A stretch of 64,000 bases of DNA from Nitrospina sp. (GTDB lineage: Bacteria > Nitrospinota > Nitrospinia > Nitrospinales > JACRGP01). How positions within the stretch are numbered: the first letter of the stretch is position 1; every line of letters starts with the position of its first letter. The stretch lies in contig JACAVV010000015.1 of the NCBI GenBank assembly GCA_024648695.1, positions 1 through 64,000 of the forward strand. The letters are read 5' to 3'. A program made the position numbers and the translations under genes. This document shows, piece after piece, positions 28,299-31,376 of the stretch. The notes beneath the pieces are model-generated. The model had not been told where the DNA came from. It was given only the letters and a program-made list of their open reading frames with translations, and made no database searches.

Positions 28299-28442
28299 GG
28301 GTGCTTATTGGTCCAGCGAAAAGAATAAAAAATATGTTTCGATTCAACAATCAAACTCCCAGATTGATAAATGTTGTTTGTTTGGATTCTGAAAGTATAT
28401 TAAAATCGCAACGAGTAAGTAATTGAAAATTTATAATAAATT

Positions 28443-29333
28443 ATGCCGAAATTAGAAGAAAATCAAATATCAGCAGTTTCAAGAATCTTTTCTACAACTG
28501 TAATTAAAGAGTTGGCGCGACATGGCAAGTCCGTCTTATTAAAAAGATTATTAAAAGAATCTTTCCTTTTAAATACCATTCCTGAATCAGAAACAATTCG
28601 TCAGGTTTTCGAAGTGGGTTTTTCTTTATTAAAAAATAAACAAAATCGCAATGAGTACATTTATAAATCTGCATTGATCGAAAAACTACTTCTTGGCGTC
28701 CATAATCTACAAACGGCTTCAATGTTAACAGAATTTCGTGTGGAGAACTGTAAAGCTGATTTTGTTATTTTAAATGGAACCGCCACCGCCTATGAAATAA
28801 AGTCAGAGAGAGATTCGTTGTCACGCCTTGAAAGCCAAATAAAAGCTTATAGTAAAGTTTTTGCAAAAGTAAATATCATAGTTGGTGAAAACCACCTTGA
28901 TTCTGTATTGCTTATGGTTCCCAAAGAAATTGGCGTATTAAAGTTATCCAACCGATATCAAATCAGTACCATTAGGGAAGGGCTGGAGGAACCCGGAAGA
29001 ACCTGTCCAGCTACAATATTTGAATCCCTTCAATTAAAAGAATCAAAGGCAATTTTGGAAGATCTTGAAATAAAAACGCCGGAGGTTCCAAATACTCAAA
29101 TGTATGCAAACCTGAAATCTATCTTTTTGACTTTAAATCCTATTGATGCTCACTATGGGATGGTTAGAATATTAAAAAAAACCCGAAACCTGATATCACG
29201 AAAAGGCCTTATTAATAATTTGCCATTGTCGCTTCAAGCAGTTGCCCTGACCACTCCTCTTCGCAAGAGAGATCATCAAAGGTTAATTTCTGCTATGGAA
29301 ACCCCTATTCATGATGCCATAAAGTGGACATAG
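28443..29333 (+). CDS. sce7726-family protein with PD-(D/E)XK nuclease-like core
   Basis: I recognise this as an sce7726-type protein of unknown function. A helical region (1-90) precedes a PD-(D/E)XK-like core: E97 (LTEFRV), D106 (KADFVIL), E118-x-K120 (YEIKSERDSLSRLE) and Q132 (SQIKAY). This order matches restriction-endonuclease-like active sites, so DNA or RNA cleavage is plausible. The remaining 150 residues have no recognised motif. The gene is AT-rich compared with its neighbours and has no clear SD. It is followed after 4 bases by the sce7725-type gene. It may sense or cleave invader nucleic acid. Confidence 0.78.
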   Translation: MPKLEENQISAVSRIFSTTVIKELARHGKSVLLKRLLKESFLLNTIPESETIRQVFEVGFSLLKNKQNRNEYIYKSALIEKLLLGVHNLQTASMLTEFRVENCKADFVILNGTATAYEIKSERDSLSRLESQIKAYSKVFAKVNIIVGENHLDSVLLMVPKEIGVLKLSNRYQISTIREGLEEPGRTCPATIFESLQLKESKAILEDLEIKTPEVPNTQMYANLKSIFLTLNPIDAHYGMVRILKKTRNLISRKGLINNLPLSLQAVALTTPLRKRDHQRLISAMETPIHDAIKWT

Positions 29334-29337
29334 AAAA

Positions 29338-30303
29338 ATGTATTTTCCTTATTTTCGTGGCAAACAATACGAATTAATAACAATTAGAGAATCGGCATCT
29401 CTTTTTGCTGAGCATAACTTTATACCGATTATTGAACCCGTAAAAGAACAGCTTGGGGGGTTAAAAAAATCTCTTGAGGCTATTAAGGAGAACGATGCTA
29501 AAGCCATAGTTATAGTCAACCCGCAATACGGTGATCATAGTAGTAATGGCCAGGTAATATCTTCCCTGCTAAACAAGGATTTTGGAAATTTCAATAATTT
29601 CATCAAAGGAATCCTGCTTACGGAAAACCTTTCCACAACGGATGCCCAGGAGCTTTTGGCTACATATAGGCGAAATGGTGAACTGGCCCTTATCCATGCC
29701 GGATTTTCCCATGCCAAAGAACTTTCTTCCATAATTTCAAATCAAGAGGGATTATTCTCAAGTATTTTTTTGGAAAACTATTGTGGAAAGCTATATCGCC
29801 GCCATTTCGAAAACCATTCGAACAGAATACTTATTAGAGACGGTTTCCAGCAAAGAAAAAATCGGGACCATCCATCAGTTGAGTTTTTCTCCGATTTACA
29901 TATAACATTTGAGGACGAAAGAAAAATTAATGGTTTTGGCGATTTTTTGATTGTAGGCAATGAATACTCGGAAACCGGAGGCCCCGCTTATACGATAGCC
30001 ATTCATCTCACTTATATAGATGATGAAAGAGATGACGAAATGCACGTACATCATTTTAAATCAGATCGTCAAAATACTCCCAAGGACCCTGCTGGGAAAT
30101 TTGCGGAAGCCCTGGAAAAACTAATAAACGAACTGGACAAACCCCATAATAAAATCCAGGAAACTTCAGCCATACAAGAATTCCGTAGCTTGCACATAAG
30201 GGGGCATTTCCCAGGTTTAGGTTATATTAAAAAACTGTCCATGAAACATCACATCGAGACCTTAGCGCAATATTTTGCGAAGAATGAAATTACCGTCAAA
30301 TGA
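29338..30303 (+). CDS. sce7725-family (beta-family-like) protein
   Basis: A 321-residue protein of the sce7725 type, of unknown function. The N-terminal MYFPYFRGKQYELITIRE, IPIIEPVK, AIVIVNPQYGDH and ILIRDGFQQRKNRDHP segments follow an alternating strand/helix order like a TIM-barrel, similar to the phage beta-family proteins. The segment HVHHFKSDRQNTPKDPAGKF is His-rich. It has no signal or membrane segment. It sits between the nuclease-like gene (4-base gap) and the RES gene (ATGA overlap at 30300-30303), so the three should be made together. Its partnership with sce7726 recurs across genomes, to my recollection. Confidence 0.75.
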   Translation: MYFPYFRGKQYELITIRESASLFAEHNFIPIIEPVKEQLGGLKKSLEAIKENDAKAIVIVNPQYGDHSSNGQVISSLLNKDFGNFNNFIKGILLTENLSTTDAQELLATYRRNGELALIHAGFSHAKELSSIISNQEGLFSSIFLENYCGKLYRRHFENHSNRILIRDGFQQRKNRDHPSVEFFSDLHITFEDERKINGFGDFLIVGNEYSETGGPAYTIAIHLTYIDDERDDEMHVHHFKSDRQNTPKDPAGKFAEALEKLINELDKPHNKIQETSAIQEFRSLHIRGHFPGLGYIKKLSMKHHIETLAQYFAKNEITVK

Positions 30304-31322
30304 TGTGTTGCGCAAATTGTTTTGGTGACAGAGGTTTGAAAAAGGAAATTATCCCCCTTCGTTCAACTCAAAGAGGAACCTGTTCTTATTGCACAACTGA
30401 AAATAAGGAATTAGTTGAACCAAATCATTTAAGCGAATATTTCGAGTTGTTGATAAGCATTTATCGGCCTGATCCGGATGGAAAAACGCTTGTAGAATTG
30501 CTAAAAGAGGATTGGTCTTTATTTGATCATCCCAAAATGGATAATGCTCACGCGAAAGAACTTTTGGGTGATATTCTTGATGATGGAGAGTTAGTTAGAA
30601 AAAACTTCATCCCTTCCGAATTGTGCCACACGGATAGGCTCGATAGTTGGGAAGAATTGCGTAAGGAACTAATGCATCAAAATAGATTCTTTCCCGCAAC
30701 TAAAATGGATCTGGATAGATTTGAAGAACTTCTTTCCCGATTAATAGCTGATCAGGATGAAATTTTTGATGTTTGGTTTAGAGCAAGGATTCAGCAAGGA
30801 GATGATACCTACGAAATTTCAGAGATGGGCGCTCCGCCTCAGCGAATGGCTTCCCATGGAAGAGCTAACCCTGCAGGAATCCCTTACTTGTATTTAGGTT
30901 CCAAAATCCATACCGCTATTTCTGAGGTTAGACCTCATCCTGGCGAAAAAGTTTGGGTGGCGGATTTCAATATTGTCTCAAACCTTAAAATAGTAGATTT
31001 AAGGGACCCGAGAAAACTGGTTTCTCCATTTCTACTCACTGATGACAACGAAATAGCATTGCTAAGAGGGGATATAGGTTTTTTAGAAAAATTGGGTAAT
31101 GAACTCACTACTCCTGTTTTACCAACTGCAGCCGCAATTGATTATATTCCTAGTCAATATTTATGCGAATTTATTAAAAAATGTGGTTATAAAGGAGTTA
31201 TCTATAATAGTTCTGTTAGCGATGGTGTTAATTTAGCGCTATTTAATCCCTTGGATGGAAAACCGAAATCTTTAAGACGGTATTCTATTTCCAATGTTTC
31301 TGTGGAATTTGATGGTGTTTAA
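30300..31322 (+). CDS. RES-domain protein with zinc ribbon and HEPN-like N-terminal region
   Basis: A 340-residue probable effector. Residues 3-31 hold a C4 zinc ribbon (CCANC and CSYC), and residues 40-160 are helical, like the HEPN/RES N-terminal domain. The C-terminal RES domain (about 165-330) keeps the conserved pattern G-R188-A-N190-P-A-G, Y196/Y198 and E209 (HTAISEV). RES toxins of Res-Xre systems degrade NAD+ by phosphorolysis. Here no Xre antitoxin is present; instead the two upstream genes are translationally coupled to it. The inferred role is NAD+-depleting toxicity in an abortive-infection-like module. The gene is AT-rich. Confidence 0.82.
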   Translation: MMCCANCFGDRGLKKEIIPLRSTQRGTCSYCTTENKELVEPNHLSEYFELLISIYRPDPDGKTLVELLKEDWSLFDHPKMDNAHAKELLGDILDDGELVRKNFIPSELCHTDRLDSWEELRKELMHQNRFFPATKMDLDRFEELLSRLIADQDEIFDVWFRARIQQGDDTYEISEMGAPPQRMASHGRANPAGIPYLYLGSKIHTAISEVRPHPGEKVWVADFNIVSNLKIVDLRDPRKLVSPFLLTDDNEIALLRGDIGFLEKLGNELTTPVLPTAAAIDYIPSQYLCEFIKKCGYKGVIYNSSVSDGVNLALFNPLDGKPKSLRRYSISNVSVEFDGV

Positions 31323-31376
31323 CTTATTTTCCAATAGGTTGAACCTGACCAACGCAAAACTCCAGTTAAATTTACG

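Follow-up and report, generated by a model that had tools for sequence, protein, structure and literature searches.

A RES-domain protein encoded with relatives of the P4 CII and Beta proteins: a mobile three-gene cassette and candidate phage defence system

The described systems closest to the locus reported here are toxin-bearing phage defence loci and RES toxin–antitoxin (TA) modules. The gop-beta-cII locus of the phage satellite P4 protects against phages lambda and P1, and Gop is toxic without Beta (PMC9122126). PD-lambda-2 encodes a HigB-like toxin, an Xre-M78 peptidase fusion, and a Beta-like protein, PD-lambda-2C, which defence requires but neutralisation of the toxin does not (PMC9519451). 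RES toxins form a large family whose members are usually TA toxins, and none had been implicated in immunity as of 2024; the NAD+-attacking immunity known relies on TIR and SIR2 enzymes (PMC11535050). RES toxins carry an R-E-S triad and consume or modify NAD+, with most of the tested enzymes consuming it and the reaction differing among homologues (PMC12457610). The active site of NatT comprises R, R, Y, S, and N, and NatRT, the corresponding TA system, showed no phage phenotype (PMC11535050). Both NatRT and GndRX are active in stress responses (PMC11535050, PMC12457610).

Here, we analyse a cassette of three genes in a 64,000-nucleotide stretch of a Nitrospina sp. contig (JACAVV010000015.1; hereafter, the window). 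We consider it probable that this cassette is a horizontally moving abortive-infection system of the toxin/regulator kind, similar to gop-beta-cII but with a different effector, a RES enzyme attacking NAD+; toxicity, neutralisation, trigger, and protection against phages are the elements of this reading that we infer. If true, this would be the first RES enzyme used in phage defence, in place of the Gop killer gene.

Layout and composition of the cassette

The three open reading frames are intact and all lie on the + strand. The first (28443-29333, 296 aa) belongs to the sce7726 family and encodes a putative PD-(D/E)XK nuclease-like protein related to P4 CII (the PADLOC model is named "cll"), as indicated by NCBIfam, PADLOC, blastp, and alignment. 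After a 4-base gap comes a sce7725-family gene (29338-30303, 321 aa), and a 4-base ATGA overlap leads from there into a zinc-ribbon/HEPN-like/RES-domain gene (30300-31322, 340 aa), the predicted effector. The coordinates thus agree with the tight packing described in the original prediction. Its statement that the cassette is AT-rich was borne out when GC and codon use were compared within the window: at 37.4% GC, the cassette is the lowest 2.9-kb stretch, the rest averaging 48.7% (sd 1.8), and its GC3 is 29-35% versus 55% (sd 5) in the 36 other long ORFs. The AT-rich island (28300-31330, no strand applicable) appears to have been acquired, as its composition and the separation of its flanking genes in relatives suggest. 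By inspection, these flanks are hydrogenase-maturation genes on one side (HypF, a HypA-like protein, and a hydrogenase protease) and an AsmA-like gene on the other. Scanning the cassette for promoters and terminators gave results at chance level, and a scan for repeats in it showed nothing remarkable. A 16-base near-perfect direct repeat has one copy upstream of the sce7726 gene (28402-28417) and the other inside it (28642-28657), which may be chance.

Kinship with P4 CII, P4 Beta, and the RES toxins

The first protein matches the NCBIfam sce7726 model (NF033832, E=3e-54), the PADLOC "cll" model (1e-23), and P4 CII itself (blastp, 1e-15), with weak Cas4 similarity (0.02). P4 cII is annotated as sce7726, and the NCBIfam family covers both proteins, so by sequence the two are placed in the same family. 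The PD-(D/E)XK-like motif stretch runs from E97 to Q132 (28731-28838, + strand), and the PD-(D/E)XK-type residues E97, D106, E118, K120, and Q132 are invariant in 60/60 sequences. A PDB match to CagY was discarded as a repeat artefact. Each of 24 genomes with the trio yielded one sce7726 gene. Elsewhere, P4, Pasteurella phage Pmp11, and three gammaproteobacteria each have a sce7726 gene and a true Beta gene in convergent orientation. The Pmp11 locus (L086:2601-4893) is thus another phage-borne locus of the gop-beta-cII type and adjoins a CI-like repressor; the gene in its gop position gave no match to the PADLOC gop model.

The second protein is clearly a sce7725-family member (NCBIfam NF033831, E=4e-99), and its AlphaFold2 model (pLDDT 93) predicts an alpha/beta barrel-like fold. 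No significant PDB fold was found for this model, which had weak barrel-type matches, and its best match among viral structures was a protein of Gordonia phage Powerball (A0A5J6TRS2, E 1.5e-9). The PADLOC and Pfam beta models did not match the protein, nor was pairwise blastp with P4 Beta significant. Profile comparison was more sensitive. With a first profile, hhalign aligned sce7725 and the Beta family (PF14350) at E 9e-4 and a probability of 23%; with more diverse members, the alignment was full-length and co-linear (E 3e-5) at 72% probability, which is not above 95%, while reversed, shuffled, and unrelated control profiles reached at most 1.2%. One divergent sce7725 protein also had a weak match to the Pfam Beta model (E 0.008). 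These comparisons indicate that sce7725 is a remote homologue of P4 Beta, which is a statement of remote homology and not of family membership. The link of the sce7726 and sce7725 proteins to CII and Beta of gop-beta-cII was not part of the original prediction and was added by the present analysis. It ties two uncharacterised, widespread families, sce7725 and sce7726, to a killer locus of a phage satellite that was among the first such loci to be described, and the trio offers a concrete, testable role for both.

In the third protein, the RES domain (30780-31244, + strand; Pfam E=4e-15) contains R163, R188, Y198, E209, S304, and N311, which are invariant in all 62 aligned sequences and include the R-E-S triad (PMC12457610). 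N190 is kept in 61/62 and Y196 in 56/62. The N-terminal C4 zinc ribbon (30309-30392, + strand) has its four cysteines, C4, C7, C28, and C31, in 62/62. The ribbon and the intact RES active site had both been proposed from the sequence, and the residues named for this protein and for the sce7726 protein are all at the positions given, nearly all of them invariant in relatives. The proposal of HEPN-like helices fared less evenly: it is backed by a fold-level family match that lies below threshold (HEPN_RES_NTD1, 23.6 bits with a cut-off of 27.4), but the Rx4H motif is not conserved (R121 in 45/62, H126 in 37/62). A catalytic HEPN RNase was rejected on this basis, and the region is unlikely to act as one. 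The AlphaFold2 model (pLDDT 92) is closest to MbcT, P. putida Xre-RES, and ParT among PDB folds; the Foldseek E-values are modest because the RES part alone aligns.

The presence of ParT among the closest folds raises another option, in which the enzyme would modify one specific target of host or phage by ADP-ribosylation, in the way that ParT modifies Prs, rather than deplete NAD+. RES homologues do differ in their reaction (PMC12457610), but no sequence feature discriminates this activity from NAD+ depletion, and most tested RES enzymes consume NAD+ (PMC12457610). We consider a specific target unlikely.

Comparison with the known systems shows what the cassette shares with each. With gop-beta-cII, it has in common a CII-family protein, a remote full-length Beta homologue, and a make-up of three genes in which the effector gene adjoins that of the Beta type. 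However, the effector is a RES enzyme where P4 has the 133-aa Gop with a hydrophobic segment; the three genes share a strand in the order 7726-7725-RES, unlike in P4, where cII and gop-beta are convergent; and the similarity to Beta is detectable by profile comparison only. No gop homologue was found in the cassette: the RES protein has neither a PADLOC gop match nor similarity to P4 Gop, and no other gene of the cassette is a plausible candidate. Like PD-lambda-2, the cassette has three genes and a Beta-family component, which is required for defence in PD-lambda-2, but toxin and regulator are unrelated, PD-lambda-2 has no sce7726, and its Beta-like part is not an antitoxin. The HigB-like toxin and the Xre-M78 fusion are absent from the cassette. 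The RES-Xre TA systems (MbcTA, ParST, NatRT, and P. putida Xre-RES) share the RES fold and the invariant active-site residues, but the RES protein here differs by its C4 zinc ribbon and helical HEPN-like region at the N-terminus, and the cassette has no Xre, MbcA, or ParS antitoxin; as predicted, there is no Xre gene, and the neighbours of the RES gene are sce7725 and sce7726. With TIR/SIR2 immunity (e.g., Thoeris and DSR), the cassette would share the proposed outcome, NAD+ loss in infected cells, although its enzyme belongs to the ART-like RES superfamily and its sensors are unrelated. By its gene content, then, the cassette is assigned neither to gop-beta-cII (no gop, and beta only remotely) nor to RES-Xre (no Xre). 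By analogy, it most likely works like gop-beta-cII with the enzyme of a RES-Xre system. The trio as a system is not covered by the PADLOC 2023 models tested.

Distribution, mobility, and defence neighbourhood

About 85,000 genomes were scanned with a sce7725 alignment, which gave 348 relatives, and we examined the best 80 of these 348 loci. The same three genes, in the same order and on the same strand, are present in 77 of these 80, which confirms that they are co-inherited; the gaps range from -43 to +24 bases between sce7726 and sce7725 and from -8 to +22 bases between sce7725 and RES. Of the other three loci, L007 meets a contig end and L053 a run of N, whereas L072 genuinely lacks RES and has an integrase-like gene after it. 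These 80 loci are spread over about 14 phyla, and the record titles include Proteobacteria, Actinobacteria, Bacteroidota, Chlorobi, Nitrospinota, Nitrospirae, Planctomycetes, Cloacimonadota, Spirochaetes, and Campylobacterota, as well as desulfo-/geobacterial groups, Victivallaceae, and several candidate phyla. Copies are also known from Enterobacteriaceae (Lelliottia and Enterobacter), which makes the cassette readily testable in E. coli. A sampling of Alpha- and Gammaproteobacteria, with the centre genomes excluded, was added to avoid the bias of best matches. There, sce7725 occurred in 1/384 alphaproteobacterial genomes (a trio) and in 3/368 gammaproteobacterial genomes (one trio, one pair without RES, and one broken copy), which shows the distribution of the cassette to be sparse and patchy. 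In a mirror-tree analysis, the pairwise distances within each protein family were correlated across the trio, with r = 0.82-0.88 for 63 loci, from which near-duplicates and one outlier had been removed, and an overall range of 0.82-0.91; 0/999 permutations on the full set did as well. By this measure, the three proteins co-evolve.

In the window's phylum, 3/77 genomes have the cassette, and each of these copies occupies a different region of the trio tree: the window's copy with gamma- and alphaproteobacterial copies, the second with Alteromonadaceae, and the third with a Brocadia copy. In relatives, the AsmA-like gene and the gene for the hydrogenase protease are widely separated or lie on different contigs, for which reason no clean empty site can be shown. 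A shared core syntenic position was considered and rejected from the patchy presence and the non-adjacent flanks, which leaves the earlier view of the cassette as an island standing. Trio copies are found on plasmids, ICEs, prophages, and viral contigs; the Salmonella houtenae copy, for example, adjoins an integrase and ICE genes. The cassette moves horizontally, including between phyla. Two damaged copies were seen: in one (L073:10001-13875), an insert of ~1.8 kb near the end of sce7725 interrupts the gene and leaves RES intact, and in the other (L042:10946-12452), RES is split in two.

Such carriage on plasmids, ICEs, and prophages, the tight overlapping genes, and the usual role of RES toxins in TA systems (PMC11535050) would also suit a plain addiction module of mobile elements, with RES as toxin, sce7725/sce7726 as antitoxin, post-segregational killing, and no part in defence. 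However, the best 80 copies mostly belong to genome contigs, a good number of which are long and chromosomal; two regulators of ~620 aa in total, one of them nuclease-like, are more than an antitoxin needs; and the related gop-beta-cII does defend. We regard simple addiction as rather unlikely.

The surroundings of the trio bear on its role. The original prediction had suggested counting nearby defence genes, and 132 genes at most 4 kb from the trio matched 208 PADLOC families, among them SoFic and the specificity subunits of type I RM systems, whereas 132 control genes drawn at random positions from 20 trio genomes matched 4. Redundancy among the type I specificity models inflates the figure of 208, which is not convertible to a gene count. 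Defence genes are enriched near the trio, and we claim this enrichment but not its size. A non-defence stress or metabolic regulator, for which defence and mobile neighbours would be incidental, has its precedent in the stress roles of NatRT and GndRX (PMC11535050, PMC12457610), but the patchy presence, the transfer between phyla, the defence-rich neighbourhoods, and the homology to gop-beta-cII make it very improbable.

Abortive infection is the explanation best supported because the trio is conserved, its proteins co-evolve, the third has a RES fold and active site, the other two are kin of CII and Beta, and defence genes are close by. In the mechanism that we propose, the RES protein would be the effector, attacking NAD+ by phosphorolysis, hydrolysis, or ADP-ribose transfer and so stopping growth. 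The Beta-like barrel of sce7725 and the nuclease-like sce7726 protein would form the control and sensing part, which may keep the effector silent in healthy cells. A phage-derived nucleic acid or phage process would then be sensed, and the effector released or activated.

The pair without RES and RES without the pair

Many phage and prophage contigs (L108, L110, L111, L112, L114, L119, and L258-L279) have the sce7726-sce7725 pair but no RES gene, and a repressor or integrase is frequently its neighbour. Such phage and prophage pairs fall in at least 4 separate places on the sce7725 tree, which points to several independent losses. The pair may therefore have a job of its own, and a function as antitoxin only is weakened as an explanation. 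We also considered whether RES never occurs without the pair, which was rejected: relatives of the RES protein (24-43% identity) stand alone on enterobacterial conjugative plasmids and on phage contigs, including Bacillus-type ones. These solo zinc-ribbon/HEPN-like RES genes (L280, L281, L282, L238-L241, L245, and L249), some of them near SIR2, TIR, or Y-family polymerase genes, imply that RES may not need an antitoxin. Because the pair occurs without RES and RES relatives occur alone, chassis and effector are separable. For the same reasons, and because PD-lambda-2C does not serve for neutralisation, the step in which the pair restrains RES is weakened. The intact RES beside the interrupted sce7725 of L073 and the absence of a phage phenotype for NatRT (PMC11535050) also count against our main reading.

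In phages, the RES-less pair could possibly be phage-borne immunity or counter-defence: it would be protective on its own or else serve the phages as an antidote. Taken further, sce7726-sce7725 would be the immune (or phage-borne immunity or counter-defence) unit, cleaving as a nuclease or blocking other systems, with RES as an accessory. The repeated origin of pair-only phage loci beside repressors and integrases and the invariant PD-(D/E)XK residues speak for this, but the trio is the rule in cellular genomes (77/80) and RES co-evolves with the pair, and we find it decidedly unlikely. The abortive-infection reading can instead be widened: a Beta-type barrel and a CII-type nuclease-like protein would be the chassis of a widespread new immune system with exchangeable effectors (the Gop membrane toxin in P4, RES here, and peptidase/HigB modules elsewhere), the trio would be the first with a RES effector, and phages would carry the chassis without effector, perhaps to silence the system. 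We give this broader proposal an even chance.

Some further neighbours of these genes deserve mention. On one viral contig (L264:4150-6813), an Xre regulator and an M78/IrrE peptidase lie directly upstream of sce7725-sce7726, with the order of the pair reversed, an arrangement that recalls PD-lambda-2 and CapH/CapP. In L170 and L171, the gene ahead of Beta looks peptidase-like by eye. The neighbours in these three loci fit an exchangeable effector/regulator slot. On the Enterococcus faecium conjugative plasmid p114-2 (L004/L088), sce7725 is found without RES and is preceded by an unrelated-looking hypothetical gene.
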